A stretch of 64,000 bases of DNA from Thraustochytrium sp. TN22 (Eukaryota; Sar; Bigyra; Thraustochytrida; Thraustochytriidae), in NCBI GenBank assembly GCA_013306675.1, contig JABLUY010000108.1:52619-116618 (forward strand), written 5' to 3'. The first letter of the stretch is position 1. Each line of letters opens with the position of its first letter. Below the pieces are notes generated by a model, which did not search any database, was not told where the DNA came from, and saw only the letters and a program-made list of their open reading frames with translations. This document shows positions 12,995 through 60,806 of this stretch, one piece after another. Made by a program: the position numbers and the translations under genes.

Positions 12995-14083
12995 ATGGAG
13001 CGCGAGGCGCTGCTGCGCGGGCGCGAGGAGGCGGAGGCGGAGGAGGAAGAGGAGGACGATGAGCTGTTCTACGGCACGGGCACCGGCGCGGGCGGCGGCG
13101 GCGGCGCGCCCGACGTGGACGCGGTGCGCGAGCGCTGCGTGGAGCGCGCGTACCGGCGGCAGCGGCGCGAGGGCGGCGCCGCGCAGGCCGGCATGTGCCA
13201 GCCGTGCGCGGAACGCGCGTGCCCGCTGGCGTACCTGCTGGAGGTGCCGGAGCCGACGTGGCGCCTGGCGCTGGGCGCCCGCGCCGCGGGCATGGACAAG
13301 AAGGCGCTGAGCACCATCGCGCTGCTGACCGTGCAGGAGTTCGATGGCACGCAGCGCGACGACATGGCGCTGCTCCAGGAGCTCTGGAAGCTGGCGCTGC
13401 CCAGCCAGTCGCCCGTGGCCTTCAAGCGCAAGTCAGAGGACTGGAAGCGCATCGGGTTCCAGTCCGAAGATCCCATCACCGACCTGCGCGGAGCCGGCAT
13501 GCTGGGGCTGCGCGTCGCCGTCACCGTGGCGCGCGACGCTCCCGACGTCGTCAAGGGCATGCAGTCCGACGGTCTCCTCTTTGGCGCCATCTGCGTCAAC
13601 ATGACGGCGCTCGTGCTCGTCCACCTGCGCATCCTCCACATCGCCGCGTACGAGAGCGAGCGCCGTGCCATCGTCGACCCTGCCGCCTTTCCCGTCGCCG
13701 GCGCGTCCTTCTCGAGCAACGCGCTCACCACGAGCCGTGCCGTGCAGCTCGACGCGATGCGCGGCTTCGCCGGCCTCATTGACGGCGCGCGTGGCCAGAG
13801 CATCAGCAGCTCCAGCAGCGGCCGCAACCTTGAGGCCGAGCACGGGGTGCGCACCTTCGCCGCCGTCTGCACCGCCGGCATGGTGCTCGTGCTGCGTGCT
13901 TGGCGCGAGCTCCTCGTCATCCAGCCCTCCGCCACACTTCTCAACTTCGGCTCCGTTCTCTACTCGGCGCGCGTTCACCTCGTGCACATGCTCGCCTGCA
14001 ACCCGCGCTCTCTCAAGATCCTCATGAGCTGGGCTGACGAGGCGCGCTCCGTCCTCATCGATCCGTCCCGAGGCATTCCTTGA
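12995..14083 (+). CDS. ELMO-domain (CED-12) protein, 362 aa
   Basis: The ELMO domain covers about residues 105-310. The hallmark is ELWKLAL...WKRIGFQSEDPITDLRGAGMLGL. The Arg in TDLRGAG (R165) corresponds to the conserved WRGxxxxxG/DFRGMG arginine that ELMOD proteins need for Arf-family GAP activity. The N-terminus is acidic (a run of Glu at 16-20) and Gly-rich, followed by CQPCAERAC (residues 68-76), a possible metal or disulfide cluster not typical of the family. The length matches ELMOD1-3 (about 300-380 aa) and not the longer ELMO1 scaffolds, so it is probably a stand-alone GTPase regulator. The start is ATG 12995, directly after a GGC repeat. Confidence 0.88.
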   Translation: MEREALLRGREEAEAEEEEEDDELFYGTGTGAGGGGGAPDVDAVRERCVERAYRRQRREGGAAQAGMCQPCAERACPLAYLLEVPEPTWRLALGARAAGMDKKALSTIALLTVQEFDGTQRDDMALLQELWKLALPSQSPVAFKRKSEDWKRIGFQSEDPITDLRGAGMLGLRVAVTVARDAPDVVKGMQSDGLLFGAICVNMTALVLVHLRILHIAAYESERRAIVDPAAFPVAGASFSSNALTTSRAVQLDAMRGFAGLIDGARGQSISSSSSGRNLEAEHGVRTFAAVCTAGMVLVLRAWRELLVIQPSATLLNFGSVLYSARVHLVHMLACNPRSLKILMSWADEARSVLIDPSRGIP

Positions 14084-33022: not shown

Positions 33023-35008
33023 TCAGAGCTCCGCGAGAGGCGCAGTCGCAGCGGCGTGCGCGTCGCAAAAGGTGCGCGCGTCGTCGAGCGAGGCGTCAAG
33101 CGCAAGGTTGAGGTCCTTGAGGGTGGCTGCAATGGACTCCTTAAAGGAGAGGAACTGGTCGACGGCGGAGTGGAGGTCGTCATCGAGCGCCTCGAGCTCC
33201 ACCATGTGCTCTGATGCCTCCGCGGCGACGCGGTCGCGCAGCGCGACGAGCGAGGCGTCCGTCTCGGCGAGCGGCTCGCGCAGCTGCTCCGCCTCGAGCT
33301 GCAGGCGGTGAATGTCCTCCTCGACGGCCTCGGTCTCGGTAGCGCGCTCGGCGAGCTCGGCCTCCATCTCGTCCTTGTCTTGCTGCAGCTGGGCCTCCGC
33401 CTGGTGCAGGCGCTGCTCGAGACCCCGAATCTCGCTGCGCACGGCCTCCTGGGCCTCGTCGTTCTCCTCGACCTTGGCTTGGAGCTCCATGTTGCTGGTG
33501 CGGATCTGGTGGGTCTTCTTGACCGAGTCCTCGCGCAGGTTCTGAAGCGCGGCGGTGATCTCGCCAACGTCGGCGCGCTCCGCCTCGGCGCCAGGCCCGT
33601 CCGCGGCGAGCGGCACCAGCGCGCCGCTGCGCGCATCCAGGCGCAGCTGGATGTCGGCACCCGCTCGCTCGTGGCCCTGGGTGAGCTTGAGCGAGCGCGC
33701 GATGGCATTGTACTCCTCCAGGAGCGCCTCCACGTGCTGCGTGCGCTTGGAGATGGACATCTCGGCGTCCCAGATTTCCTTTTGCAGGTCGTCGCGCTGC
33801 TCGAGCACCTCGTTGCACTCGGCCTCCAGCGAGCGCTTCTCCTGCGTCATGCGCTCCGCGTCGGCCGGGTTCAGCTCCTGCTCGTCCAGCACGGCCTGCA
33901 CCTCGCTGCGCGCCTGCTCGGCCTGCGCAAGCTCAGCCTCCTTGGCGCGCACCTCGGCCTCGCGCTCGCGCACCTTGGCCACCATGATGTCCTTGTTCTC
34001 CAGGAACTGCCGGATCAGCTTGTCCCACTTGAGCTTGTCGCTGGTGAAGTCGCGTTTCCGCTGCTCCAGCTCCGGGATCAGGCTCTGCCGCGCAGACTCC
34101 TGCGCCAGCTCCTCCACCAAGTCGTCGCGCTTGCGCTGCAGGTCGCCGATCTCCTCCTCGATTGCCACATCGCGCTCGCGGAACTTGCCCGCCAGCTCCG
34201 CGTCCAGCTCCTCGTATCGGTTATCGTCGCCGCACAGGAAGCACTGGTACGCCTTGCGGATGTAGGTGAAGAAGATGCGGTCGATGTCGCCCTCGGCATC
34301 GCCGCCCGCCTCCTCCTCCGACAGCCCGGCCAGCTCGTCGTACTCGAGCAGCTCCACGAGCCACACCAGCGACGCCAGCAGCGCCGGCCACGTGTGCGGG
34401 CTGCCCACGGCCGCCAGCGACGTCTTGCTGATGCTGAACGGGTACCGCAGGCCCTTCATCATGGTCGTCACCTCGTCTGCCACCTTGGCGCCAAACCGCC
34501 CGGCCGGGTCCAGCATGCGGAACAGAAACGTCACCATGTGCTCAAAGTCCTTGCCCGTCGGCCTGTGCAGGATCTTGGGCGAGAGCGCCTGGTCGTAGTT
34601 GTGGTCGGCCAGGAACCGGATCAGCGTCTCGATGCACTGCGAGCGGAAGCTCTTCTCGTTCAGAGGCCGCGGGTCGCTCTTGAGCGCGGCGCCGGCCCCC
34701 GCGCCCGGCGCCAGCGACTTGCGCCGCGACGCCACCGACACCGTCGACTGTCTCCGGTTCGCCGCCGTCGCCGACGCCATCTGCTGCTGCAGCGCCATGC
34801 TCGACGTGCCCACCGCCGGCATCATGGACATGCGCTTGTTCGCCTTCGCCTTCTTCACCGTCGTCCCGCCGCCCAGCGAGTACCTGGGCAGCGTCGTGCC
34901 GGGCCCCAGCGACAGCCGCGCGCCGCCGCCCCCGAGGCTGCCGCGCGCGATGTTCATCCTCGACGTCGACACGCGCCCCAGCGCCGGCCGCCGCTGCTGG
35001 CTCTGCAT
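33023..35008 (-). CDS. NDC80: kinetochore protein NDC80/HEC1, 661 aa
   Basis: Subunit of the Ndc80 complex, which binds spindle microtubules at the kinetochore. The N-terminal 110 residues form a basic, Ser/Thr-rich tail (for example KAKANKRMSMMPAVG, RRQSTVSVASRRKSLAPG), the type of tail that Aurora kinase phosphorylates in known homologues. The calponin-homology-like Ndc80 domain is at about 110-230 (EKSFRSQCIETLIRFLADHN; HRPTGKDFEHMVTFLFRMLDP; LRYPFSISKTSL; GSPHTWPALLASLVWLVELL). Residues about 275-640 are coiled coil. The human protein has 642 residues. The start is ATG 35008, about 100 bp downstream (on this strand) of a GA repeat. It is tandem with the DENN gene, whose 3' end lies about 715 bp upstream. 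Confidence 0.95.
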   Translation of the reverse strand: MQSQQRRPALGRVSTSRMNIARGSLGGGGARLSLGPGTTLPRYSLGGGTTVKKAKANKRMSMMPAVGTSSMALQQQMASATAANRRQSTVSVASRRKSLAPGAGAGAALKSDPRPLNEKSFRSQCIETLIRFLADHNYDQALSPKILHRPTGKDFEHMVTFLFRMLDPAGRFGAKVADEVTTMMKGLRYPFSISKTSLAAVGSPHTWPALLASLVWLVELLEYDELAGLSEEEAGGDAEGDIDRIFFTYIRKAYQCFLCGDDNRYEELDAELAGKFRERDVAIEEEIGDLQRKRDDLVEELAQESARQSLIPELEQRKRDFTSDKLKWDKLIRQFLENKDIMVAKVREREAEVRAKEAELAQAEQARSEVQAVLDEQELNPADAERMTQEKRSLEAECNEVLEQRDDLQKEIWDAEMSISKRTQHVEALLEEYNAIARSLKLTQGHERAGADIQLRLDARSGALVPLAADGPGAEAERADVGEITAALQNLREDSVKKTHQIRTSNMELQAKVEENDEAQEAVRSEIRGLEQRLHQAEAQLQQDKDEMEAELAERATETEAVEEDIHRLQLEAEQLREPLAETDASLVALRDRVAAEASEHMVELEALDDDLHSAVDQFLSFKESIAATLKDLNLALDASLDDARTFCDAHAAATAPLAEL

Positions 35009-35107
35009 CCTGCCGCCGCCGCGCTGCCGCGCTCGCTCGCCGCCGCCGCCGCCGCGCCGCCGCCCCCGCGCGCGCGCCCGCTCGCCGTCCTGGCTTTGCC
35101 GCTCTTC

Positions 35108-35156
<49 letters not shown>

Positions 35157-35722
35157 ACTTTTAGCGGCCGTTACAGCCGCGCCGCCGCCGCACCGGACCC
35201 GGCGCGGGCGCCGCGCCAGAGCAGGCGGGTGGTGCGCGTGGTGCGCTGCGCGCGACCCGGCGCACGCGTTGAATTTTTCCCTTCCCTTCAAAGTTCCAGG
35301 CCCTTCCAGCCTCAGCAGCGACGCTTGGAGAATGCGCAGCTCGCGTGTCGCTTGCGCTGAAGAAAGCTAGGGAGCGAGCCGGAGAAGAATGAGCCAGGAA
35401 GGGGGTCTGACTTTGAGGGAGACTTTGCGGTTTGAGCGAGGAAAGCTCTGCGTTCTGCGCGAGGAAAGGATTGCTTTGCGCGGCGCGAGTCAGCCTGCCA
35501 GCCTGCCAGCCTGCCTGCCTATTTGCTTGGCTGCAGCTTTCTTCTTCTTCTCACATCACGTCAGCATCATCATCGTCATCATCATCACAAAATCTACTTT
35601 GTCAGGAATGAGGCAAGAGTTGTTGCCCGCCGCCAGTGGCAGGGCGAGTATTTTGCATGCCACGCGTATTGCTACTTCGCGAGGCGCTCAGGCGCTCAGG
35701 CGCTCCGTAAGGACGCCGAAAG
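35009..35722. promoter_or_regulatory. NDC80 upstream region with (CT)n
   Basis: A 46-bp CT (GA on the sense strand) repeat at 35108-35153 about 100 bp before the NDC80 ATG, then GC-rich sequence, then AT-richer sequence with a CATCATCAT run (about 35565-35586) and GCCTGCCA units (about 35495-35520). No gene is seen. Confidence 0.6.
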
Positions 35723-38700
35723 CTAGCTTGCCATCGCGGCGGGAGGCTCGTCTCGCGTAGTGGCAGGGTCGTCATCGTAGTCTGGAAGGCCCGGGGCGGG
35801 TGTCGGAAGCGTGGCGAGGTCGTGCAAGACGTCCTGGTCGGCGCCAGGGTTGCTCTGGCTGGCGATGCGGTTGGCCTCAACGAAGCTCTGCACGTCAGCC
35901 TGGAGATCGACGCTGTCGAGCGCAGTGTGAGAAGCCTCAAGAAGACGCGTGAGCTTCTCGGCGCGCCGGCGATGCCAGAACTGGACCGTCTCGTCGAGCG
36001 AGATGAGGAAGGAGAACTGATAGCGCTCGAGGCGGTCGTAAATGCGCATGACACGGGCGGCCTCGCTGCGGTAAAAACGCGTAAAGTCGGCATACTTGTC
36101 CTCGGCCGCGAGCCTGCTGGCTTCCTCGGCCTCCAACTTGCGATTGGCAGCGTTCACCTTGCGCACCTTGCGGTCCGCGCCAGCCTCCTGCGTCAGGTAG
36201 TTGCGGTGGTACTCCTTTTGCTCGCAGTCTGCCAGCACGCTGCGCGCCTCTTCGACGCGCTCCGTGGCGCGCGTCAGCGCCGACCGCACGGCGGCGCCCT
36301 TGCGCCGGAGTGTGGCGCGAATCTCGGCAATCTCCTTGAGTTTGCCCTGGCAAAAGTCCACCATGCGCCGCAGCGCGTTGATCATGTCGGAGTCCGCCGA
36401 CTCCACGCACTCCAGCGATGTCATCACCTGGGCCTCCCAAAGCCTGTGCACCTTGGCGATGGCCAAAAAGAGACTGTTGGACTCTGGGGAGGCGGAGCGC
36501 TGCGGCACCCGTGCCGAGGTCGAACCCGACGCTGACGCCGACGCTGACGACCGCATCGAGCCGTCATGGCTCGCGCCACCGCCGTTCAACTCGCCCTCGC
36601 CCTCGCCCTCGCCCTCGCCCTCGCTGCCGCCACTAGTGCCACCGCCACCGCCAGTGCCACCGCCAAGGAGGCTCGCGAGCGCCGAAGGCCCGTCGTCCAG
36701 GCCGAGCGTGTTCACGTCAAGCTCGGTCACGCCGTGCTCGTCAGACGTCTTCGGCGTCTGCGCTGTCTGCGCCTCGCTACTGATGCCGTTGGCAGCCTGC
36801 GCCTCTACGTGCTGCGCCGCCGTATACATGCCGCCGCTGGCGGAAGCCGCCTTGAGGCCGCGCGACGACGGATGCAGAGGCACCATGTGACGGATGCGCA
36901 TGCCCAGCTGGCGCACAGAGCGGCCTGTGCGCTTGAGCGAATCGAGCTTGGACGTGTTGGCCGAGCGCATCGAGGCGGACCGCAGCGTGAGAAGGTCCTC
37001 CGGGGGACCCGAGCGAGGAGACCCGTGGCCCAACGCTGCCACGAAACTCTCGTCCTCCAGCATCTCCGGGTGCGAGACTGCGAAGATGCCATTGGCCATG
37101 AGCTGCGCCGCCGCCGGTGACGTCGCGATGAGCTTGCGCTTCTTGATGAGCTCGCGCCGGCTCAGGCTCAGAATCGGGTGCGAGGCAATCTCGTCCAGGG
37201 CGTGCGTGTAGACCGACTTGCTCACGGCCAAGCGCTCCGGCAGCACCTCGAGCAGGCTCTCGCACACCAGCTTGGAATGCAGAATCACCGTCTCGACCTC
37301 GTCGCAGCACACTGGCCTCTCGCGCCGCTCGTGTCGGCCCTCGGCGTTCACCTGCACGGGCCGCATCAAAAAGCCGTGCGCCGAGGAGGTGAACATCTTC
37401 GACAGCAGGCTCGCCGCGCTTGTGGAGCCGAGCGTCTGCTTAATGCTCGTAGCCATCGATGAAGCGTTGCCCAGCGACCGCATCGCCGCGCGCTCCGCGC
37501 GATTCGCCGACAGCGTGCGGGCCGGCGCGTCGCTGCCCAGCATGCGCAGCTCATCGCCCGTCGACCCACTCATGTAACCCTGGCTCAAGCTGTCCTGGTC
37601 GCGCGCCCCGCGAGTCGAATCGAAGAAGCCGTTTGTATCCATGGCCGCCAAATCCAGCACCGCGTCGTTGTCGCCCTCAAACACGATGGGTTCCTCCGTG
37701 GTGTCCAACGCACGCGAGCGGCCCTTGAGGAAGTGCGAACGGTTCGCGTGCTCCAGCGAGATTTTCTGCGCCGTGTCCACAAAAGTCTTCAGGTACTGCT
37801 GGCACGAGGACAGCGCGTCCGTGTACCCACTCTGCATGGATACCAGGAGCTGCGAGAAGCAGGTCTCGTACACCTGGCGCGCGCCCTCAAACTGTGAGCG
37901 CGCCTCCTCGAAGGCGTCCTTGGCCGCCTCGCACTTGTTGCGTAGCTCGAAAAGACGGTCGCGCTTGCGCTTCCTCTCCTCCGGCGTGCGGTACGTCGCG
38001 TCACGGAGAAAGCTCTCGAACTCCGCCGTTTCCGACTCGTACTGGGCCCATTGCTGCTTCGTGCTCTTGAGGCGATCGCGGGCCCGATGCAGCCGCCCCT
38101 CCGCCATGTCCTTGCTGCGAACATACTCCAGCAAATCGCCGTACAGGGTGCGCTTGCTCGTGCGCGCGTCCATGGACAGCCTGCTGATGGCGTTCTCCAG
38201 GCTCAGCAGCTCGTCGGACTCTTCCTTGATGCTCCAGAACGTCTTCAGGAAGAGATCATCGAAGGGATCCACATCACGCCGCTGCTCAAGCAAGTCCAGC
38301 GGGACCACGCCCAGATGCGCACACAGCTTCTCCAAATCGTTCGTCGCCTTGCGCTCCACCTTGGCCAGGCCCTCCGTGTGCTTTTGCAGCGACTTGAGCC
38401 GGATACGCAGCTCGTTGAAGCGAAGCATCAGCGTCCCCAGGCTGCGCCGCATGTACACGGCAAAGAGCCTCCCCTCCAGGCTAACCGACTCCACCGAGTC
38501 GAAGCGCGTCGTCCTCCGCTGCCCATCCGCGCCCACCGTTGATGGCGTCGCGAAAAGAGCGCCGTTGCCGCCACCTCCTCCTCCGCCGCCGCCGCCGCTG
38601 CTGCCTGCGTGGGACGCGGCGCCGCTGCGGGCCGGGCTGTGCGCGCTACGGCTCGAGGCCTCGCCCGCCACGTGGCCCTCCTCATCTTCGTCGTCCCCCG

Positions 38701-40026
38701 CCCCGGACCGGGGCGACCCCACGCCAGAGGCGCCACCCTGGCCGGGCGAGCCGGCCGCAGAGCCGCTGCCGTTGCCGCCGCGGCCGCCCTTCTCTCCGGC
38801 TGCCGGCATCATGCCGGCCATGGACGGATGGCGCGAGAAGTGGTCCAGCGCGTCATCAAGGTACCGCTTGGTACGCTCGTCGAGGTCCTTGTGCTTGCGC
38901 AGATCCGCGTGCGGGTCCACCTTGAGGATGGCCTCCATGCGGTCGTTTACCGCGGCGCGCGTCACTTCGGTGCTCGCGCGAAGGCCCTCCACGAAGTCGT
39001 CCAGCTGCGTTACCGTGTGCGTGACGCGATTCACCTCGACGCGAGTGAACTCCTCGAACGCAGAGTTCATCCAGTGCCGATACTCGGCTAGCGTGCCGTC
39101 CAGCTGCAGGTGCTTCGCGTTGCGCTCCTGCGACAGGAGCGTCTCCTCCGCAGCCAGGTCCACGAGCTTCTTGGCAAGCCGTTCCTGCCTTTTGAGCGCG
39201 TGCGCCAGCTTGTCGCTGTCCGTGTTCTTGAGCACGCGCTTCACCGCGCTGCGCAGACCTCCGCGCTGGTGCTGGCCTTGATTTTGCAGCCCGATTGCGT
39301 CCTCCGAGACACGCCGGTCAAATGGCGCAGCCGCTGACGAGGACATGGCCGAGTCGCCCGCCTCGCCGGCGCCAAAGGCCGCCGGACCATCCTCGGGCGG
39401 CGTCTGCGCGGCCGACACATGCTCCTGAAGCTCCCTTGCCTCGACGGCGGCACGTGCCAGCTCCTGGCTGACCTTGTCCTTGTCCGCGCCCTTGGCCATG
39501 AGGTGCTGGTCAGCCTTGTACGCGTCTTGTCGCGCCAGACGCAAAACGTCCAACGTCTCGTCGTGGCCCGTTGTCAGGCGCAGGGCCGCTTGTGAGAGCT
39601 GTACACGCATCTCCTCGGACATTTGCACGAGCGCGCGGTCCATGAGCTCTGCGTTGTCCGTCATGGTGCCGGCCACAGTCATCAGGCATTCCTTTACCAT
39701 GAGAAGTGCCTGCTGCAGGGTACTCAGTTTGCTCTTGCCGCGGTTGAATGCCTTGCCCACCTCCATGTTGCGCACCGTCGCGGTGAACCTCATGCCCAGC
39801 GTGCGCATCGCCACCACGCGAATCTCACCCAGGTCCACGCTCGTCTTGTAAAGGCTCGACACGCTTGACATCCAATCGCGCCATAGTCGGAAGACCTCCT
39901 CACGGTCCTCGTCTGTGGGTTCCTCGTACCGCGAAAGTGTCGGCAAGGCGTCCTTGTTTGGGTACTCGAGGTCCTGCGCGTTGATGTGGCCGTCATCCTC
40001 CTCGATGTTCTCCGCGTGTCGGAGAG

Positions 40027-40063
<37 letters not shown>

Positions 40064-43000
40064 ACCCTCGCCGTAAGCGGCGGTCTCCAGGGCGCCAGTG
40101 GTCGGTGTCACGTCCAAAGCGCCATCCTCGCCCACGTCAACAGAGCTGGATGACCGCGATGAGTCGCGGCTCAGGAGGCTGATGCGACTACGCCTGCTGC
40201 CAGAACTGCTGTGACCGCCACTACCTCCGCTGCTCTCGCGACCGTGAAGACGTCGTAACTTGGAAGAGGATGACGAGGGTGGCGGCGGTAGGGCCTGCGC
40301 AAGACCATCATTACGCACGTCCTTGTACTCGCCCTCGGCGTCTTGCGTCGCGCCGGCGTCGTCAATTTGGTCCGCGCCCTCAATTGAGGCCAGGGCCGGT
40401 GCAGACCCCGACGAAGGCAGGCCTTTGGGACTTGACCCCGAGTCCAATTCTTCCTGTTGCTGTTGCTGTTGTTGTTGTTGCTGCTGCTGCTGCTGCTGCG
40501 CCTGCTGCGCCTGCACGTGCGCAGGCTGCGAAGCGGACCGGGATCGCGGTGTGCCGACAGAGCCGCGCGGGCTCCTGGTAAGGCTGTCCCGAGAGCCGGC
40601 AGAGTTGGCCGAGCGCGGCTCGCGAGGCGCAACTGACGGGCGCCACACGGGCGCCACAAGTGAAGCGTGCAGACTTGCAAAGGAGGATTGACGGCGTTGC
40701 ACGAGGCAGCGAAAGAGAATGGCCATGAGCTCCTTGAGCAGCGTCTTGACCATCTTGATACGCTTGCGCTCGCTGCGGTGAAAGGTCTGGAGGTTCTTGG
40801 AGTTGCCCTCGGTGAAGTTCGTAAGCTCACGCGTCAGCGACGCCACGTCCTGCGCGAACTGCAAACGCGCCGCCTTGAGCGAGCGTTTGGCTGCAACCTT
40901 GCGGTCCAGCAAACGCCGGAGTTCCGACACCGACACGTGCGAGGTGCGCGGAAGCACGTCCGGCATGCTCCGCGTCGCCGGGCTCGGGCTGGACGGCGAG
41001 AATCCCGGGGACCGAGGCACGCCGGAGTTGCCACTGGACGCGCCGCCCTCAGCCCGGGAGTCGTCCGTGGCGGCGTCGCTGCCGTCCGAGCGGCCGGGCA
41101 GGATGGCCAGCGCGCGCAGGCTGTCGGCCATGTTCAAGCCGGCGGCCATGGAGGGCAGACCGATGGCGTCGGAGCGCCGGCGATGGCGCTGCGACCCCTT
41201 GACCTGGATTGAGCCGCGGTGCTTGGTGGACAAAAAGGTCGCCGAGGCGCGGCGCCCCTGGTGGCGGCCCGAGAGCTTGGCAGACTGCGTGCCGGCACCG
41301 CCCATGCTCATGTCGTGCGCGTTCATGCCGAGGCCGACCATGGAGTGCGACTCGGAACCGTCGTCGTTGGCGGCGTCCCGAAGCTCGCGCGGGAAAGTGG
41401 TTTCGGTGCCGTCGATACGCAGGAGAGGCGGCGCGACGCCGCCCTCGGTGCCATCGTTGCTGTGGTTTTCGTCGTCGCCGAGGAAGTCTCCTTCATCCGC
41501 GACCTGCGCCACGTCCTCCTCGTCGCACCAGCGCGCGTCAAAGAGCTCGTCCGCCGAGCCGGCCGAGCCAGCCGAGTATGTCGAGCCCTCAGAGCGCGGT
41601 GCAGTGTGGAGAGAGCGCTCCGACATGGGGCTGGCGAGGCCGCCGAAGCGCGACTGCACGGAGCGCGGAGACCCGAGGTCGTACTCGTCGCCCGGGTGGC
41701 CGCCCTCGATGCTGCCCGTGCTGGCCGGCGTCGTGCCGCTCGTGTTGCTCTCGCGGCGATACGGGGAGGCGGGCGAGGTGGCGCCGCTGCTGCCAAGGCC
41801 GCCCACAACGTCGCCCATCCCGGAACGGCGCTTGCGGCGCTTCATCTTGCGCGCGATCATGGGCGTCACGCTGCGATAGTACTTGGACATGGCGGAGTCC
41901 TGCTGGCGGCGCTTCTCCTCGAGCGTCTGCTTCTGGAGCTGCGCCTGCACGGCGGTGAGGTCCTTTTCGATGCGCTCGTAATCGTGCAGGGCAGACTCCT
42001 TGCTCTTCTTGGAGCGTTCCATGTTGGTCATGCGCAGCGAGATGACGCTCATGTGCTTCTCCTCGGACTCGATGAGGATCTTGTTGGTGTTCTCCAGCGC
42101 GCGGATCACCTCTTTGAGCTGGTTGCTCTTGTTCGAGAGCTCCGCAGCCATGTCCTTGCACAGCCGCGAGTGCTGCTCGGCCTCAGCACGAACGCCGGTC
42201 CACACAGACTTGCGCATGTAAGGGTGCATCTCCAGTGTCGGATCTAGCACACGGAAGCGCGCGTTCCTGTTGGTCTCCGTCTCGCGGAACGCCTTGTCGA
42301 TGGTGTAGCTGTACTCCTCGAGGTGGCGCACGATGCCCTCAATAACGGCGTCCAGCTGCTGCACGTCCTGCAGACCGGCGCGCGCGTACCTCTTGACGAG
42401 GCCGAAGCGCGCGCGAAAGAGGCGCTGCTTGGTGAAGAAGGAGAGGTTCACGCTCTCCAGCACGTGCTCGACCTTATCAACATTGCGTAGGAGGTGCGAG
42501 CCGCGTCGCGCGCGAATGAGGTTCGGCACGGGCTGCGGCGTCGGCAGTCCGGCCCAGTGCAGCGTCTCCGGGAAATAGCGGTCGTTCCTGCGAAACTGAC
42601 CGGCGCCGGCGTACTCCTTGGCGGTGGGCGGCGCCACGTCGTAGTTGCTGCGGCCTGCCTGAGAGGTGTCGGCCAGGAAGGAGGCCTTGATGGCGTGTCG
42701 ATTCAGGCTGTAGCTGTACGAGACGAGCTGGGATTCGGCATCGTTGCTGCTGGCTGTCCCGCCGGTGCCAGCTCCGCCGGCACCCGAGCCGGCACCGCCG
42801 CTGCCGCCGCCGCCGCCGGCACCGCCGCTGCCGCCACCCATAGGGCCGGTACCGCCCCCGGTACCGCCGCCGCTTGCGCCTCCGCCACCCGCGCCACCGC
42901 CACCCGCGCCGCTCTCGATGCTCACGCTGATCGACGGCGGCGGCGTAGAGCGCGCCTGGTCAAGGTGATCGATCCAGGCGTCGAAGAGCATGATCTCGAA

Positions 43001-46000
43001 GTTGTGCTCGGCTGCGAAGACGCGCGAGTCGAAGAAGCCCTGCATCATCTGCGTGGAGATGAACTCGTTAAGGAAGCGGCGGCCATTGGGCGTGGAGGCG
43101 TCCTTGTGATCACGCAGAAAAGCCTCGCGGTTGATGAGCTCGTCGCCGTCCTCCTCGAGGCCGCCCATGTACCAGCGGTAGTCGCCGATGATATGCACAA
43201 AGAACTCGAGGAAGATCTTGCGCACGGCGTTGTTGAAGTCTCCCGTTGTCGCGTCCAGGACAGGCGTCGTCTGCTTCGAAGTATCTTCCTCGAGGAAGTC
43301 AGTCTCAATGCGCCGCGGCACGGCGGGCCCGAGACCATGGGCGGCCTCCGCCTCGGAAGCCAGGCTGGTGTCCGAGGGCCGTGGCAGCTTGCGGCGGCGG
43401 CTGTTGCGCCGTTCGCGCGCGCTCTGGCCGACCACTGTGGTTTGCGAGCGCTTTTCAATCGGGTGGTCCTTCCCGCTATGTACATAGACAAGCGCGCGCA
43501 AAGGGTCCCACAGCTTGCGCACGCTCTTCTGCGGCAAAATGGGCAGATCGCGATCCGTCGGCAGCTTGACCGTGTTCTCGTCGAGGTCGACGGCCACCAC
43601 GGAGTTGAGGATGCTCTGGTCGCGCGGCATCTGCGAGCGGTGCATGCCGATGATGATGGGCGTGGGCGCCCCGAGGAGCTCGAGCATCTCCGGCTTGTTG
43701 GGCAGCACCGGAATCACGTTGCCCTGCCATTTGAGTGGCCACAGCAACGCCAGCAGGCCCGTGATGACGTGGGACAGCAGGTCGAGCCGGCTCGTGATGA
43801 GCAGGACGGACGTGTCCAGCAGGAGCGCCGAGAACAGGTTAAGGAGACTCTCCGCACCGAGGCTCTCGAAGATGGGCCGCAGCGGCACATTCAGGAGCGG
43901 CAGCCGGTTCAGCGGCGGCTTGGAGCACGTAAAATAGTACTGCATGTCCTCGTGCAGCTTGAAGCGCACGCGGTACTTGCCCGGCGGCGGCTCCGGCACT
44001 TCGGTCACCACATGCTGAATGCAGCGCTCCAGGGGCACGGGCAAGGCATCCTTGTCACGCACGAACTGCAAAATCTCGCGGAGAACGGCACCGAAGAGGG
44101 TGTAGTATGGCCACGGCGACACGAAGGTGATGCCCTTGGCCTCGTACGGGTCCCACCTGGCCAGTTTGTCGGCGGAGAACTCGATGAAGCGGTCCTTGAG
44201 CGTCTGCATCGCGGCCAGCCGCACCTCGCGGCAGTATTGGATGGCCGGCTCCCCATCGGAGGTCTCGTCCACCAGCGAGGCGGACGAGTTGATGGCCGGC
44301 TGCGCGGCGCCCTCGCCCCGCAGCGGCGGCCGCACCTCGGCTCTACCTCCAGCTGCTGCCGCCGTCACCTCGACCTCCTCCGGCTGATGCGGTGCGGCCT
44401 GCTCCAGATCCTGCTCCTCGTTCCGCTCGGTGTGTGTTCGGGCGCGGGCCTCCTCCACGGAAACGAGGCTAGGGACCGAGGAAGCGTCGTCGTCATCGCC
44501 GTCATCGCCCTCCTCGCCGCCGGCCTCCTGGTCCAGGTCTGCCTGCGCGGCAAGGTCGTCGGCTGCGAGGCGCGCGTTGACCAAGCGCAATAGAGTGTCG
44601 ACGTACTCCTCCTCCATGAGGTTGGCCATGGGCTCTCTGTAGTGCTGCAGGTAGCCTCCGAGCAAGCGATTGAAGCGCGGTTGGTGCTCGGGCGCGTCGG
44701 CGTTCTCCCCGTGCTCGCGCAGGATACTGTCGAATTGCTGGCAGAACTTGAACCAGACGAGCTCATCCTCCGTTGTGCATCGCGAGGCCAGGTACTCGGT
44801 GAAGGCGCGCGTGATCCAGTCGCTCCGAGCGCGGTCGCGCTTAAGAACCTGGTCAAGGGAGATGTCAACTAGGCGATTCTTGATGCGCGAGGGGATGGGG
44901 TCGTGGAAGCTCACGCAGGTGGCGTGCGTCATCTTGTGGGAAGCATCTGTCATAAGAAAAGAGTACTCCTCCGCCTCCGAGTTGCGCCTGCCTTGCCGCA
45001 CGGTCATGCCGATGGGATGGCAGAACTGGTACAGCTCGGGTTCGAGCGGCAGGTCCGCGTAATCCTCGCGCGGGAAGCGATCTTTGATCGTTGCTGGCAA
45101 GGTGGCGCAGAAGTCCGGGTCCAGCAGATCAAGCTTGGCGATGGGCCCGTTGCGCAGCGCCGCGCGCCAGTCGATGCCAGTAATGGCAAAGTAGGTGGCT
45201 ACGGTGGGCGGCCGCTTTCGCGAAGGCGCCTTGGCCAACCCCGAGGCGGACGAGGCGGGCGTCGGCAGACCTTGCGAGCCGGAGCTGCCCGCCAGCGCCT
45301 CGGGCCGCAGTGAAAGCGCCCGCAGGCTGCCGCCCGCGCCGCCCGGCGCGGCGGCGCCGCGGCGGCTGCCGCTGCCGCCGCTGGCGGCGTTCTTGCCTGC
45401 CGCGATCCGGTCCTCCTCGTCTTCGTCTTCATCTTCCTCTTGGTCACCGTCGGTCTCCCGAGACGTGGCGTCCGCACTGCTGCTCCCCGAGCGTGAGGCG
45501 CCCAAGGCGGCTGGGAGGCGAAGAACGGGCGCGCGAGGCGGGCCTCCCCAGCCGCCTCGCGCATCGTCCTGGCCGCCCGCGTTCGGGCCGGCGTCAGTGC
45601 CGCCGCCGAAGTGTCCATAGACGCCCTCGCCCTCAGCGTCGCCCTCGTCTTGGACACCGCGATCGTCGCCCATGACAAGTCCCTGGAACTCCTCCGGGAG
45701 AAATGGGCTGTCCTCGTCCTCGTCATCATCGTCGTCATCGTCGTGGTGGTGATCGAGATGGTCGTCGCCGAAGCTATCGCGCGATGTCTGGAGCGCGAGC
45801 AGGCGCAGTGAAGGCCCGGCGTGCGCGGCCGCTGTGGCTGCCGCTGCCGCGATGATTTCTGCCTCGAGCGCCTCCTCGTCCACATCCAAGCGCATGTCAT
45901 CGTCGAGCCCGTGCGGAGACCCGAAGGCGCCGCCGTCGAGCGGGACAATGTCGTTCTTGGAGTGATCAAAGGGCGGCGAGAAAACCTCCACGGCGCCACC

Positions 46001-46294
46001 CTCCTCGGAGCTGCCGTCCCCTTCGATGCCGCCCGCCACATCAGACGAGCCTTGCTTGGCTATCTCCGCCTCCTCCACATCGCCGCGGGCAGCGAGGTCT
46101 GAGTCGGAACTGCTATGGCTCAAAGTGGCGAGGAACTCGTGCGTGAAGTCGGTCTTGTTGCCGTCGCCGTTGGCGCTGGCCTTGAGAACTTCGCTCGAGT
46201 GAAGCTGCTCCACCTGAGCTAAGAGCTCATCGACATTTTGCGCAGATTTCGCGGACCCCGTCGACCCGCGCCGTCTTGAGGAGGAGGATTTCAT
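35723..46294 (-). CDS. giant DENN-domain protein with multiple F-BAR-like segments, 3,523 aa
   Basis: One uninterrupted 10.6-kb frame from ATG 46294 (MKSSSSRRRGSTGSAKSAQN). The upstream in-frame codons lack an ATG. The tripartite DENN module, a Rab guanine-nucleotide exchange fold, is complete: uDENN at about 370-545 (ITGIDWRAALRNG; DLLDPDFCATLP; YQFCHPIGM), cDENN at about 770-935 (RVRFKLHEDMQYYFTCSKPP; LLLDTSVLLITSRLDLLSHV; KWQGNVIPVLPNKPEMLEL) and dDENN at about 1020-1115 (AVRKIFLEFFVHIIGDYRW; FISTQMMQGFFDSRVFAAEH). A Gly-rich linker follows. Then long helical regions resemble F-BAR modules, for example SVWTGVRAEAEQHSRLCKDM with KKSKESALHDYERIEKDLT. Low-complexity inserts separate them: two poly-Gln tracts (coded at about 40441-40500 and 40028-40063), acidic runs and poly-Gly. 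It is likely a membrane-bound Rab regulator. Confidence 0.85.
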
Positions 46295-47613
46295 ATTGTG
46301 AGGATTGTGTGTTGGGCGGTGCGGCGTGATGTGTTTCAATCAATTCAACGCGATGCAACAATGCAACACAATGTGTACGCGTACGTGTCGAGTTCCAATG
46401 GCCTGGTCAGCCGCGTCTCATGATCAACCTGAGCAACTGACCAGGGCTTTGTTTTTTCTGCGGGAACCTTAGGTCCGCAGTGGGCCGCACGGAGCCGCCC
46501 CGGCTCGTCACAGTAGGAGCGAAAACTCAAGACACGGGTACCGCGGCGAGGACCGCGCCTCGCCTCACCTCGCCTCGCCTCGCCTCGACTCGACCCGCCA
46601 GGGCAGGTGCGCCCGCTCAGGCGCTGAAGCGAGCGAGTTGGAGCGGTTTTTGTCGCGTCTACGGGTACCACCCGGTCGTCCGGCCTGTACTCGCTTGCCG
46701 CTCGACCGGGCGTCCCGATGGGCCCGGCTTCGACGAGGTCCGCGCCCGTGCCGTGTGCTGGGCCCTCCCGGCCTGCCGCTGCGCCCGCGGCCGCGCGGCG
46801 CGCGCCCGCGCAGGCCGATGGCCCTCCTCTCCGCCGCGGCGTTCGCCGGCGTGGCGCTGCCCTGCCTTGCCCTGCCCTGCCCTGCCCTGGCCTGGCCCGC
46901 GCCCCGCTGCGCTGCGCTGCGCTGCGAGCCGGCCCGCGGAGCGCGCAGCGGCCGGCCGCGAGACGGACCCCCCGCGCCGCGCCCGCGCGCGCCACGCCCG
47001 CCCGCGCCCGCGCCGCGCGCCTGGAGTTCTGCCTTGGGCGCCTGCTTGTCTGCCTGCCCGCCCGCCTCGCCGTCGCCGACGCGCGGACGCCGTCCGGAAC
47101 CCTTTCGGACGCCCGGCGCGGCCCAGCGCGGCCCAGCGCGGCGGCTGGGAGGGCCATCTCTCGCGATCGATGATCCACCGTGCATTCCAGTGCACTGAGT
47201 GCAGGACGCTCTGCCAGCCTGCTAACTTAGTGCCAGTGCATGCATGGGTTTGGGTCGAGTACGACGCCCCGAATGGCGCTCGCTCTAACTTTACCAGTAC
47301 TAGCTAGCTAGCTAGAGGCTCGGTCGATGCAGTGGTGCTGCAAGTACGGGTGGTGGTGCTGAGAGGGTGGTACCTGCAGGCTGCATGTGGCACATGGAGA
47401 AGCTCGTTTGCAGGAGCGAACGAGAACGAGCTGCAAGATCTGGACAAGTCGAGGACTTGGACAAGGTCGACGCCTGTCAACATGTCCTTTTCGAGGTTGC
47501 ACTTGCTCATGAGCACGCGCGCTCATTCTCGCCGCCACCGTCGGCGCCGCCATCAGCAAGAATGCAAAAACACACATCCGTCAACAGCGTTGTCGTTTGG
47601 ACTAAAAACCTTC
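46295..47613. promoter_or_regulatory. DENN gene promoter region, GC-rich with microsatellites
   Basis: About 1.3 kb. It has CTCGC units at about 46556-46592, CCTGC units at about 46856-46890, GCTGC units at about 46905-46925, and CTAGCTAGCTAGCTAG at about 47301-47315. The frames here are Arg/Ala/Gly/Pro-rich on both strands and not credible. It holds the promoter of the DENN gene and the 3' flank of the nuclease gene, both on the minus strand. Confidence 0.6.
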
Positions 47614-55190: not shown

Positions 55191-55279
55191 CAGCAAAACG
55201 CGAACGCCGAGCAAGCACCTAGCCCAAGCAAGAGCCAAGACGGACACGAGCCAAGCTTGCGAGCTTCGCTAAGAACAAG

Positions 55280-56734
55280 ATGAGCGCGAGCAGCGCGGCG
55301 AGCGGGCGGTTCACGATGACTATCGACGGTGCGCCCGTGCAGGGCTCGGCCAAGGGCTTCGACGTGCTCAACCCGTTCGACGGGTCGGTGGTGGCGCAGG
55401 CGCCGACGTGCTCGCGCGAGGACCTGGACCAGGCCGTGGAGGCGGCGCGCAAGGCCTTCCCCAAGTGGGCGGCGACCCCCTTTGATGAGCGCAAGGAGTA
55501 CCTGCGCAAGATGATCCAGGTCATGAAGGACAACAAGGAGGCGCTGGCGGAACTGCTCGTCAAGGAGCAGGGCAAGGGTTACGTGCAGGCTGACTTCGAG
55601 GTGGATGCCGGCGTCAAGTGGTTCGAGGAGACGCTCACCACGGAGAACCCGAACAAGGTGCACGCGGACGCGGACGAGCAAAAGGTGCAGAAGACGTACA
55701 AGCCGCTGGGTGTCGTGGGCTGCATCACGGCCTGGAACTTCCCCATCGTGCTCATGTGCTTCAAGATCTCCTTCGGCCTGCTCGCTGGCTGCACGATCAT
55801 CCTCAAGCCGAGCGAGTTCACCCCGCTCACCTCGCTCGAGCTCACGCGCCTCTTCAACGAGGTGCTCCCGCCCGGTGTGCTCTCGGTGGTGACCAGCGAG
55901 GCCAAGGAGCTTGGCGCCTGGATGGTCGAGCACCCGGGCATCGACAAGATCTCCTTCACCGGCAGCACGGGCACCGGCAAGAAGATCATGGCGGCCGCCG
56001 CCAAGACGCTCAAGCGCGTCACGCTCGAGCTGGGCGGCAACGACCCGGCCATTGTGCTCGACGACGTGGACCCGGCCAAGGCCTGCCCCACCCTCTTCCA
56101 GGCTGCCTTCTTTAACAGCGGCCAGGTTTGCGTTGCCTGCAAGCGTCTCTATGTTCCAGAGGACCGCCTGGACGAGTACTGCTCCGAGATGAGCAAGCAG
56201 GCCGCCGCCGCGCCCTTCGGCAACGGCATTGACAAGAACAACGTCTTCGGCCCGCTCAACAACAGCATGCAGTACGACCGCGTGCGCGAGCTCCTTATCG
56301 ACGCCCTCGACAACGGCGCCGAGATGGTCTACGGTGAGGTCCCGCCCGCCCGCGAGGAGGTCAAGGGCTACATGATCAAGCCTGTCATCCTGCGCAACGT
56401 CAAGGATGGCATGCGCATCGTCGACGAGGAGCAGTTCGGCCCGGTCCTCCCCATCCTCCCTTACAAGTCCGTCGACGAGGCTGTCCAGCGCGCCAACAGC
56501 ACCGAGTACGGCCTCGGCGCCAGCGTCTGGACCAAGGACCTGAGCGCCGGTGAGGAGGTTGCCTCGCAGCTCAACTCCGGCACCGTCTGGATCAACACCC
56601 ACGCGGAGATCGACGGCACCATTCCATTTGGCGGCGCCAAGTGCTCGGGCATGGGCTATGAGGGCGGCTCCGAGGGCCTCGTCAGCTTCATGCAGCTCCA
56701 CGTCATCAAGACCAAGAAGAACATTGCTCTCTGA
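55280..56734 (+). CDS. aldehyde dehydrogenase, copy 1 of 3, 484 aa
   Basis: NAD(P)-dependent aldehyde dehydrogenase superfamily. The catalytic Cys is C284 in FFNSGQVCVACKR, and the general base is E250 in VTLELGGNDPA. The cofactor-binding segments GCITAWNFPI, ILKPSEFTPL and FTGSTGTGKKI (Rossmann fold, conserved Lys in KPSE) and the C-terminal EQFGPVLPIL and PFGGAKCSG are all present. The length is typical. It has no targeting peptide and starts MSASSAASGRFTMTIDG, so it is probably cytosolic. The substrate cannot be read from the sequence; the overall pattern is of the broad aliphatic/semialdehyde group. It is almost identical to copy 2 except near the ends, most clearly in the last 50 residues (NTHAEIDGTIPF; MGYEGGSEGLVSF). 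Confidence 0.95.
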   Translation: MSASSAASGRFTMTIDGAPVQGSAKGFDVLNPFDGSVVAQAPTCSREDLDQAVEAARKAFPKWAATPFDERKEYLRKMIQVMKDNKEALAELLVKEQGKGYVQADFEVDAGVKWFEETLTTENPNKVHADADEQKVQKTYKPLGVVGCITAWNFPIVLMCFKISFGLLAGCTIILKPSEFTPLTSLELTRLFNEVLPPGVLSVVTSEAKELGAWMVEHPGIDKISFTGSTGTGKKIMAAAAKTLKRVTLELGGNDPAIVLDDVDPAKACPTLFQAAFFNSGQVCVACKRLYVPEDRLDEYCSEMSKQAAAAPFGNGIDKNNVFGPLNNSMQYDRVRELLIDALDNGAEMVYGEVPPAREEVKGYMIKPVILRNVKDGMRIVDEEQFGPVLPILPYKSVDEAVQRANSTEYGLGASVWTKDLSAGEEVASQLNSGTVWINTHAEIDGTIPFGGAKCSGMGYEGGSEGLVSFMQLHVIKTKKNIAL

Positions 56735-57067
56735 TTCTGATGGAGACGGACGTCCAACGTCCAACGTCCAACGACGAAACTCATGACATAAGACAAAAAC
56801 GGCCACGCTCACGCAGCTGCTCTCGCCCTTGTCGCTCGTTGGAGCCATCCGGCGGCCTCTCGCGCGGCTTCCTGCCCTGTGACGTGCATTGCAGTGGCGT
56901 CTCTGTCGAGCTGGATCTTCGCTTGCGCGTCCGGACCGCCGGGTACCCCCAGGGGACACATCCGAGTCCACCAGCCGCCTCGCTGCTGCCACTGGCAGTG
57001 ACAAGAGCTGACCCGGACGCAAGAGAGCTGGCTGATCGAGGTCAGTGGGCTTTGATCTTTTGCTCTC

Positions 57068-57106
<39 letters not shown>

Positions 57107-57503
57107 GCCTCTCGCGTCTTCTTTGACGCAGTGCCTGCACTGGCAGTGCAAGCGCGCGGCGGACTCGGACCGGCGACGTCTGATGATCTGATCAGTCCTC
57201 GAGCGAGCGCCGCTCTCAGCTCGGGGTCGCCGTCGGGCTTCGATGAAGTTTGATCTTGCTCTCTCTCCGTCTGTCTCTCTCTCCTCTTCTTACTTGCTAC
57301 TAAGCTAAGTGCCAGTGGTAGCATCGTCTCGCGTCTTCCTTGACGCAGTGCGATGAGAGCGCGCGTGGCGGACCGAGGTCGTGACGTCCACGCCGGCAAG
57401 ATCTGGTCCGGCAGGCACGGTGCGGAAAGGGGCCCGGCGTGGGACGCAGGCCCGCGCGTCGGAGAAGGCACCAGGCAGCGCTCGGCGAGGGACTCGGAGC
57501 TGC
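56735..57503. repeat. ALDH1-ALDH2 spacer with microsatellites and a duplicated block
   Basis: GTCCAAC units at about 56750-56775 and a CT run at 57063-57103. The blocks TTTGATCTTTTGCTCTCTCT...CTCGCGTCTTCTTTGACGCAGTG (about 57051-57133) and TTTGATCTTGCTCTCTCTCC...CTCGCGTCTTCCTTGACGCAGTG (about 57248-57350) are diverged copies. No gene is seen. Confidence 0.65.
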
Positions 57504-57587
57504 AAAACGCGAACGCCGAGCAAGCACCCAAACCCAAGCAAGAGCCAAGACGGACACGAGCCAAGCTTGAGCTTCGCTAAGAACAAG

Positions 57588-59042
57588 ATGAGCGTGAGCA
57601 GCGCGGCGAGCGGGCGGTTCACGATGACCATCGACGGTGCGCCCGTGCAGGGCTCGGCCAAGGGCTTCGACGTGCTCAACCCGTTCGACGGGTCGGTGGT
57701 GGCGCAGGCGCCGACGTGCTCGCGCGAGGACCTGGACCAGGCCGTGGAGGCGGCGCGCAAGGCCTTCCCCAAGTGGGCGGCGACCCCCTTTGATGAGCGC
57801 AAGGAGTACCTGCGCAAGATGATCCAGGTCATGAAGGACAACAAGGAGGCGCTCGCGGAACTGCTTGTCAAGGAGCAGGGCAAGGGTTACGTGCAGGCTG
57901 ACTTCGAGGTGGATGCCGGTGTCGCGTGGTTCGAGCAGACGCTCGGCACGGAGAACCCGAACAAGGTGCACGCGGACGCGGACGAGCAAAAGGTGCAGAA
58001 GACGTACAAGCCGCTGGGCGTCGTGGGCTGCATCACGGCCTGGAACTTCCCCATCGCGCTCATGTGCTTCAAGGTCTCCTTTGGCCTGCTCGCTGGCTGC
58101 ACGATCATCCTCAAGCCAAGCGAGTTCACCCCGCTCACCTCGCTCGAGCTCACGCGCCTCTTCAACGAGGTGCTCCCGCCCGGTGTGCTCTCGGTGGTGA
58201 CCAGCGAGGCCAAGGAGCTTGGCGCCTGGATGGTCGAGCACCCGGGCATCGACAAGATCTCCTTCACCGGCAGCACGGGCACCGGCAAGAAGATCATGGC
58301 GGCCGCCGCCAAGACGCTCAAGCGCGTCACGCTCGAGCTGGGCGGCAACGACCCGGCCATTGTGCTCGACGACGTGGACCCGGCCAAGGCCTGCCCCACC
58401 CTCTTCCAGGCTGCCTTCTTTAACAGCGGCCAGGTTTGCATTGCCTGCAAGCGTCTCTTTGTTCCCGAGGACCGCCTGGACGATTACTGCTCCGAAATGA
58501 GCAAGCAGGCCGCCGCCGCGCCCTTCGGCAACGGCATTGACAAGAACAACGTCTTCGGCCCGCTCAACAACGGCATGCAGTACGACCGCGTGCGCGAGCT
58601 CCTTATCGACGCCCTCGACAACGGCGCCGAGATGGTCTACGGTGAGGTCCCGCCCGCCCGCGGGGAGGTCAAGGGCTACATGATCAAGCCCGTCATCCTG
58701 CGCAACGTCAAGGATGGCATGCGCATCGTCGACGAGGAGCAGTTCGGCCCGGTCCTCCCCATCCTCCCTTACAAGTCCGTCGACGAGGCTGTCCAGCGCG
58801 CCAACAGCACCGAGTACGGCCTCGGCGCCAGCGTCTGGACCAAGGACCTGAGCGCCGGTGAGGAGGTTGCCTCGCAGCTCAACGCGGGCACCGTCTGGGT
58901 CAACACGCATGCGGAGATCGATGGCACCGTTGCCTTTGGCGGCGCCAAGTGCTCGGGTGTGGGTCATGAGGGCGGCGCCGAGGGTCTCCTCGCCTTTATG
59001 CAGCTCCACGTCATCAAGACCAAGAAGAACTCTGCCCTCTGA
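57588..59042 (+). CDS. aldehyde dehydrogenase, copy 2 of 3, 484 aa
   Basis: The same fold and active site as copy 1 (E250, C284 in FFNSGQVCIACKR), same length, and near-identical DNA through most of the frame. The start is ATG 57588 (MSVSSAASGRFTMTIDG); the frame is open further upstream, but the paralogue alignment fixes this ATG. The last 50 residues (WVNTHAEIDGTVAFGGAKCS, then GVGHEGGAEGLLAF) match copy 3, not copy 1. About 85 bp before the ATG are also shared with copy 1, so the duplication carried the 5' leader. The substrate is unknown. Confidence 0.95.
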   Translation: MSVSSAASGRFTMTIDGAPVQGSAKGFDVLNPFDGSVVAQAPTCSREDLDQAVEAARKAFPKWAATPFDERKEYLRKMIQVMKDNKEALAELLVKEQGKGYVQADFEVDAGVAWFEQTLGTENPNKVHADADEQKVQKTYKPLGVVGCITAWNFPIALMCFKVSFGLLAGCTIILKPSEFTPLTSLELTRLFNEVLPPGVLSVVTSEAKELGAWMVEHPGIDKISFTGSTGTGKKIMAAAAKTLKRVTLELGGNDPAIVLDDVDPAKACPTLFQAAFFNSGQVCIACKRLFVPEDRLDDYCSEMSKQAAAAPFGNGIDKNNVFGPLNNGMQYDRVRELLIDALDNGAEMVYGEVPPARGEVKGYMIKPVILRNVKDGMRIVDEEQFGPVLPILPYKSVDEAVQRANSTEYGLGASVWTKDLSAGEEVASQLNAGTVWVNTHAEIDGTVAFGGAKCSGVGHEGGAEGLLAFMQLHVIKTKKNSAL

Positions 59043-59342
59043 TTCCAATCCAAGCTTGGGTCCAACGACGAAAGCCACAAATGTCAATCTTTAATCTCTC
59101 TATTTCCGTCGTTGTCTTGACACCGTGCCGCCGCAGTACCGCGGGTTCCACCATTGCCTGCACCACGCCTTGGACGCTGTCAGAGTTGATGTAAGTCCGC
59201 CACCTGGGACAGTCGTCACGAGTCGCATACTATCCTACGTGCTTGGCAACTCAAGCAGGAGGAAGCGCAGCACAAGCAGATCTAGAACGCATCAACCCGA
59301 AGCGCAAAAGCCGTCTCACTGTCAGGCTCGGCGCGCCAGAGG

Positions 59343-60806
59343 ATGAGCGCCAGCGCGGCGGCGGCGAGGTCCGGGCGGTACGCCATGACCATCGGGGGCC
59401 GCGCCGTGCAGGGCACGGGCGGGGCGCCCTTTGCGGTGACGAACCCGTTCGACGGGTCGCCGGTGGGCGAGGCGCCGACATGCTCGCGCAAGGACCTGGA
59501 CGAGGCCGTGCGCGCAGCGCGCGAGGCGTTCCCGGCGTGGGCGGCCAAGAGCTTTGACGAGCGCAAGGAGTACCTGCGCAAAATGGTGGATGTGCTCAAG
59601 AAGAACAAGGACGCGCTCGCGGAGCTGCTGGTGCTGGAGCAAGGCAAGGGCATGCCGCAGGCCGCGGCCGAGATCGCCGGCGGCGTGAGCTGGTTCAAGA
59701 ACGCCATCGACGCGGAGAACCCGAACAAGCTGCACGAGGACGCCGACGCGAAGAAGGTGCAGAAGACGTACCAGCCGCTCGGTGTCGTGGGCTGCATCAC
59801 GGCCTGGAACTTCCCGATCTCGCTGGTCTGCTTCAAGATCCCCTTCGCGCTGCTCGCGGGCTGCACCGTCATCCTCAAGCCGAGCGAGCACACGCCGCTC
59901 TCCTCGCTGGAGCTCGTGCGCATCTTTAACGAGGTCCTGCCGCCCGGCGTGCTCTCGGTCGTGACCAGCGAGGCCAAGGACCTCGGTGTCTGGCTCGTTG
60001 AGCACCCTGGTATTGACAAGATCTCCTTTACCGGCAGCACGGCCACCGGCAAGAAGATCATGGAGTCTGCGGCCAAGACGCTCAAGCGCGTCACGCTGGA
60101 GCTCGGCGGCAACGATCCGGCCATCGTGCTGGACGACGTCGACCCGAACAAGGCCGCCCCTTCGCTCTTCATGTCCGCCTTTATCAACAGCGGCCAGACC
60201 TGCATCGCCTGCAAGCGCCTCTTCGTCCCTGAGGCCAAGCTCGACGACTTTTGCAACGCGCTCGGCCAGGTTGCGCAGAACGCGCCCTTTGGCAATGGCC
60301 AGGACAAGGGCGTGGTCTTCGGTCCCATCAACAACGCCATGCAGTACGACCGCGTGCGCGAGCTCCTCGTGGATGCCCTCGACAACGGCGCCGAGATGGT
60401 TGCCGGCGAGGTCCCGCCGCCGCGCGACCAGACCACGGGCTACATGATCAAGCCCGTCATTTTGCGCAATGTCAAGGAGGGCATGCGCATCGTTGACGAG
60501 GAGCAGTTTGGTCCTGTGCTGCCCGTGCTGCCCTACACGTCGCTCGACGACGCCATCGCTCGCGCCAACAACTCCGAGTACGGCCTCGGCGCCAGTGTTT
60601 GGACCAAGGACCTCGACGCTGGCGAGCAGGTTGCGGCGCAGCTCCACGCCGGTACCGTCTGGGTCAACACGCACGCGGACATTGACGGCACGGTCGCCTT
60701 TGGCGGCGCCAAGTGCTCCGGTGTCGGCCACGAGGGCGGCGCCGAGGGCCTCCTTGCCTTTATGCAGCTTCGCGTCATCAAGACGAACCGGACCGCCAAG
60801 CTTTAA
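59343..60806 (+). CDS. aldehyde dehydrogenase, copy 3 of 3, 487 aa
   Basis: The most diverged member of the tandem trio, with an intact active site: E253 in VTLELGGNDPA and C287 in FINSGQTCIACKR. The N-terminus MSASAAAARSGRYAMTIGGR is slightly longer. It differs from copies 1 and 2 mostly in the N-terminal third (RAAREAFPAWAAKSFDERKE; EIAGGVSWFKNAIDAENP). It represents the older duplication. The stop lies 119 bp from the stop of the convergent CH-domain gene. The substrate is unknown. Confidence 0.95.
   Translation: MSASAAAARSGRYAMTIGGRAVQGTGGAPFAVTNPFDGSPVGEAPTCSRKDLDEAVRAAREAFPAWAAKSFDERKEYLRKMVDVLKKNKDALAELLVLEQGKGMPQAAAEIAGGVSWFKNAIDAENPNKLHEDADAKKVQKTYQPLGVVGCITAWNFPISLVCFKIPFALLAGCTVILKPSEHTPLSSLELVRIFNEVLPPGVLSVVTSEAKDLGVWLVEHPGIDKISFTGSTATGKKIMESAAKTLKRVTLELGGNDPAIVLDDVDPNKAAPSLFMSAFINSGQTCIACKRLFVPEAKLDDFCNALGQVAQNAPFGNGQDKGVVFGPINNAMQYDRVRELLVDALDNGAEMVAGEVPPPRDQTTGYMIKPVILRNVKEGMRIVDEEQFGPVLPVLPYTSLDDAIARANNSEYGLGASVWTKDLDAGEQVAAQLHAGTVWVNTHADIDGTVAFGGAKCSGVGHEGGAEGLLAFMQLRVIKTNRTAKL

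Follow-up and report, generated by a model that had tools for sequence, protein, structure and literature searches.

A giant DENN gene in Thraustochytrium sp. TN22

The 64-kb stretch of Thraustochytrium sp. TN22 DNA analysed here (the window) contains, on the minus strand, an open reading frame (ORF) of 3,538 codons without a stop (positions 35723-46339). Codon 16 is the first in-frame ATG, located at 46294, and the resulting coding sequence (35723-46294) needs no intron and specifies 3,523 residues plus the stop, which is the length given in a preliminary description of this DNA. All features of the gene mentioned below are on the minus strand, and residue counts start at the open frame's first codon (P0001); Met numbering is obtained by subtracting 15. 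The reading that we favour, with a probability of roughly 0.58, is that the protein is a DENN-class Rab exchange factor whose C-terminal half carries F-BAR-type modules, with good support for two of the four candidate blocks (F3 and F4), a third being probable (F2) and a fourth possible (F1).

The DENN part comprises a uDENN domain (44906-45091, residues 417-478; Pfam PF03456, E 2.1e-8, 34.9 bits against a cut-off of 22.3), a cDENN domain (43574-44140, residues 734-922; PF02141, E 1.3e-36, 126.8 bits against 23.4) and a sub-threshold dDENN match (42980-43132, residues 1070-1120; PF03455, E 1.8e-4, 21.9 bits against 26.8). That is, the three domains are present in the order required of a DENN protein; the full set announced in the preliminary description holds as to order, but its last member lies below the Pfam cut-off. 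DENND1A (E 1.5e-18) and DENND1B were the sole PDB matches of this part at E≤0.1, and these sequence matches leave the DENN subfamily unfixed. Matches of the whole protein to other PDB chains were set aside, as a matter of judgement, as low-complexity Gly/Ser/Gln or acidic runs. A comparison of the DENN part with prokaryote genomes gave 17 pattern matches and no relatives.

The TN22 genome (37.9 Mb, 453 contigs searched) yielded at least 12 DENN matches, the giant gene included. A Pfam scan of five of the 11 other DENN loci found no BAR-type family in them at E≤0.001. Another unusual DENN combination is encoded by a 2,013-codon ORF with RGS, PDZ and partial cDENN matches (L023:690-6728, plus strand; genome C106). 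In a further DENN protein, presumably DENND4-like, a PPR repeat matched below threshold and the C-terminal part is rich in Cys (L014:145-4743, plus strand; genome C293).

Helical blocks, linkers and inserts

Beyond the DENN part, a composition map delineates four blocks, F1 (residues ~1289-1466 and 1803-1888), F2 (2138-2312 and 2370-2499), F3 (2619-2823, with a weaker continuation) and F4 (2990-3095 and 3288-3478), in agreement with the helical block positions noted previously. Both F1 and F4 are divided by long disordered inserts of ~200-280 residues. The first part of F1 (41810-42487, residues 1285-1510) is a candidate for a1-a2, with weak on-diagonal profile matches. It is followed by the disordered insert seen in the composition map (40973-41809, residues 1511-1789), which would sit at the a2-a3 tip provided that F1 is an F-BAR, and by a second part (40625-40972, residues 1790-1905), a candidate for a3-a4 whose match to the a3-a4 profile was equalled by 2 of 277 control windows. 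The region 40650-40930 had been listed as a weaker block of its own. Since its alignment is to a3-a4 of the F-BAR profile, it is better placed as the latter half of F1, past the ~280-residue insert, and a separate F-BAR at this position was rejected.

A disordered linker with poly-Q runs (39938-40624, residues 1906-2134) separates F1 from F2, the latter being a probable F-BAR-like module (38855-39937, residues 2135-2495) with an insert of ~53 residues (2319-2371). The best-supported module is F3 (37601-38506, residues 2612-2913), on the basis of its predicted structure, structural alignment and profile matches. In F4, the helical stretch ahead of the disordered insert (37070-37327, residues 3005-3090) may represent a1, and the second part (35795-36472, residues 3290-3515) corresponds by profile to a2-a4 plus an F-BAR-type tail.

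The mutual similarity of the blocks did not exceed that of controls, and recent duplication was therefore rejected. A search of the TN22 genome for paralogues of the C-terminal blocks returned the gene itself as the sole match at a significant E value; a weak F1 match elsewhere (L026) was judged by eye to be a membrane transporter. Comparison of F3 with viral contigs gave five pattern matches and no relatives.

Predicted structure of F3 and F2

The structures of F3 and F2 were predicted with AlphaFold2 (AF2) from single sequences, because no deep alignment is possible without relatives. In the F3 model, three long helices form an elongated bundle as large as an F-BAR, predicted with medium confidence (predicted local distance difference test, pLDDT, 63.3; predicted template modelling score, pTM, 0.44). 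Among the matches listed by VIA-align, ranks 1-7 by Z score were all F-BARs and had the longest alignments. Structural matches of F3 obtained with Foldseek and VIA-align include chains of srGAP2, GMIP and ACAP1. The F2 model was helical and poorly folded (pLDDT 51.6) and had no structural match. Structure prediction, which the preliminary description had put forward as a check, gave an F-BAR-like fold for F3 and failed for F2.

Sequence-profile evidence for F-BAR character

Pfam searches with seven block segments, up to E 10, detected neither the FCH nor the BAR family. Matches with E values of 0.0047-10 (Focal_AT, spectrin-like and others) were all under their cut-offs and were consequently dismissed as chance or generic helix. 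PDB sequence searches with F3 and with the first part of F1 retrieved no F-BAR. FCH gave no match in the TN22 genome, and none in control genomes either, so that this result does not establish its absence. A profile built from three human F-BARs, validated by its recovery, at E≤0.01, of 25 distinct PDB sequences that are F-BAR proteins by name, matched the blocks with probabilities of only 0.1-3.1%.

A profile of eight F-BAR sequences was compared with the blocks and with 277 overlapping control windows taken from 58 ORFs, which come from the window and from 11 DENN loci; 199 of the 277 obtained a score and the remainder none. F3 reached 10.5, F4 8.1, F2 6.8 and F1 1.8 bits, the best control being at 4.7. 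That is, F2, F3 and F4 scored above every control, and six controls scored at least as high as F1. Among 500 shuffles, the observed score was reached by 0-1 for F3, 0-6 for F4, 1-2 for F2 and 26-33 for F1. The same picture emerged with hhalign, where F2, F3 and F4 beat all 277 controls and F1 beat 271; in every block the aligned parts were close to the diagonal. When the profile was split, a3-a4 of F3 (8.9 bits) and the tail of F4 (9.2 bits) each exceeded all controls; the remaining 14 of 16 sub-profile tests did not, and the FCH part went unrecognised in all four blocks. The C-terminal tail following a4 was detected in F4 only, the tails of F1, F2 and F3 being no better than controls.

In leave-one-out tests, true F-BARs scored 67-99 bits, compared with 0-14 for the blocks. 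When the profile was extended with the other blocks, left-out F3 (11.3 bits) and F4 (8.5) still surpassed all controls; F1 was equalled by 1-5 of them, and F2 dropped to 2.7-4.5 bits, with 1-4 of the 277 controls as high. Two observations from this test count against our reading: with the F3-extended profile, one control window attained 11.2 bits, above left-out F2 (4.5) and F4 (5.1), and in one extended-profile set-up reversed F2 scored as high as forward F2 (2.9 versus 2.7 bits).

Taken together, the data support the presence of DENN and F-BAR-type modules in one chain, via F3 (profile and single-sequence structure prediction) and via F4 (profile plus F-BAR tail), with F2 a probable and F1 a possible further module as judged from sequence. 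For F3, the F-BAR pattern proposed earlier at 37735-38455 agrees with the predicted fold and the profile, and that at 35930-36440 (F4), regarded as weaker, is upheld by the profile and the tail. The profile also speaks for the weak candidate at 39400-39930 (F2), though less stably, and the AF2 prediction for this block failed. By contrast, the block at 41820-42483 (F1), presented as a strong one, obtained weak profile matches that six controls equalled. The original ranking of the blocks was thus off, F1 being the weakest and F4 the second best.

Alternative explanations

F3, perhaps together with F4, could be the sole BAR-superfamily module, F1 and F2 serving as helical spacer or scaffold in the manner of single-BAR GTPase regulators with coiled-coil spacers. 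The low F1 score, matched or exceeded by six controls with either method, the failed F2 model and the drop of F2 once other blocks join the profile all fit this arrangement. We nevertheless consider it rather unlikely, as F2 exceeded all controls by two methods, and the F1 and F2 matches are in order and near the expected diagonal.

That the blocks belong to the BAR superfamily but to its classical BAR or I-BAR type is quite improbable. The TN22 genome has six BAR matches, five of them over the cut-off, and one of three such proteins tested (L038, genome C43:87534-88187) scored 11.3 bits with the F-BAR profile; a score of this kind alone therefore indicates the BAR superfamily. However, a profile made from the three own-genome BARs gave the blocks only -4.2 to 2.5 bits, and the three BARs scored at most 0.4 bits with the F4-tail sub-profile. 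The F-BAR type is favoured because of the F4 tail, the length and rank of the F3 alignments in VIA-align and these poor BAR-profile scores.

It is very unlikely that the blocks form ordinary coiled coils, or a coiled coil exchanging on Rab11 like SH3BP5, without membrane bending. No curated profile matched the blocks, and SH3BP5 accounts for nine of the 50 best Foldseek matches listed for F3. Among these listed matches, though, the SH3BP5 alignments cover 208-221 columns, compared with 249-316 for F-BARs, and SH3BP5 was not found among the best 50 VIA-align matches. Furthermore, lower scores with the eight-sequence profile were obtained for NDC80 and for further coiled coils encoded in the genome, and the F2 model matched nothing, so that long helices alone are insufficient to produce the F3 result.

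A merged gene model, in which the DENN and helical parts are separate genes or transcripts, is scarcely credible given 3,538 codons without a stop, other long intron-free ORFs in the genome, and third-position GC content (0.68-0.94) above second-position GC content in all 36 bins of 100 codons each, a coding-type pattern that includes the linkers and requires neither an intron nor a second gene.

Other genes of the window and genome

Immediately downstream of the DENN gene lies an NDC80/HEC1 kinetochore gene (33026-35170, minus strand), whose coiled coil was one of the controls. The window also contains a gene of the ELMO/CED-12 family (12908-14080, plus strand) and a tandem family of three successive aldehyde dehydrogenase genes (55223-60803, plus strand). 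Elsewhere in the genome, a 3,044-codon ORF carries ten tandem acyl-carrier domains (C124:29160-32300), at least eight with identical scores, at a spacing of 327 bases. This ORF, presumably a polyunsaturated-fatty-acid synthase, fits a thraustochytrid, as does a search for chlorophyll-binding proteins that gave no match.

Proposed mechanism

DENN modules act as exchange factors for Rabs, and F-BARs bind membranes as dimers. In the favoured reading, the F-BAR modules would pair with one another, within one chain or between two, and form a curved, positively charged surface holding the protein on curved membrane. GTP loading of a Rab by the DENN part would thereby be concentrated on membrane of that curvature, with the long disordered linkers and inserts acting as tethers and regulatory sites. 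We infer the exchange activity, the pairing, membrane binding and curvature dependence, as well as the Rab concerned, and Rab activation may in this way be coupled to membrane curvature. F-BARs act as antiparallel dimers, and four modules would therefore give two pseudo-dimers. One could thus imagine a DENN module followed by four tandem F-BARs arranged as two built-in pseudo-dimers (e.g. F1-F2 and F3-F4), a covalent curvature-reading platform that activates a Rab where a membrane tubule has its neck or coat, with the disordered inserts at the module tips tethering partner proteins; this more elaborate scheme is speculative and rather unlikely.

Comparison with known systems

In the open-licence part of PubMed Central, titles and abstract openings of the papers listed described no protein with DENN plus F-BAR or with tandem F-BARs, consistent with the unusual architecture claimed in the preliminary description. 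A word search of the main text of a paper on DENN diversity (PMC3521125) gave no occurrence of BAR, F-BAR or coiled; passages of a thraustochytrid paper (PMC12221091) name F-BAR in the reference list only; and a passage of PMC4031984 places the joining of F-BAR to muniscins in opisthokonts.

If correct, our reading would bring the Rab branch into the scheme of BAR modules joined to GTPase regulators, challenge the rule of one F-BAR per chain paired across two chains, and imply that stramenopile F-BAR-type domains exist that curated profiles overlook. It would also allow a dependence of Rab activation on membrane curvature to be tested concretely within one protein.

The giant protein shares the uDENN-cDENN-dDENN order of DENN Rab exchange factors, and its cDENN matches DENND1A and DENND1B in the PDB, but large inserts separate its DENN parts, and these are followed by helical blocks and disordered sequence totalling ~2,300 residues. 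Like the F-BAR proteins FBP17, CIP4, PSTPIP1, Hof1 and Cdc15, F3 has a predicted fold of three long helices, alignable over the full length of theirs, and the F4 tail is similar; unlike them, the protein lacks a Pfam FCH match, has several candidate modules and carries inserts of ~200-280 residues in F1 and F4. The known F-BAR proteins have, to our knowledge, one F-BAR per chain. SH3BP5, a coiled-coil Rab11 exchange factor, resembles F3 in its long antiparallel helices, but its alignments are shorter, it has no DENN domain, and it forms a V-shaped coiled coil without a BAR dimer. BAR-type modules occur beside Arf-GAP, Rho-GAP and Rho-GEF domains. In srGAP and GMIP (F-BAR RhoGAPs) and in ACAP and ASAP (BAR ArfGAPs), such a module is joined to a small-GTPase regulator, whereas here the predicted regulator is an exchange factor for a Rab, and the chain probably has more than one module. 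Tuba/DNMBP, a RhoGEF-BAR protein, likewise combines an exchange factor and a BAR in one chain, but with a DH domain for Rho-family GTPases and a single classical BAR.
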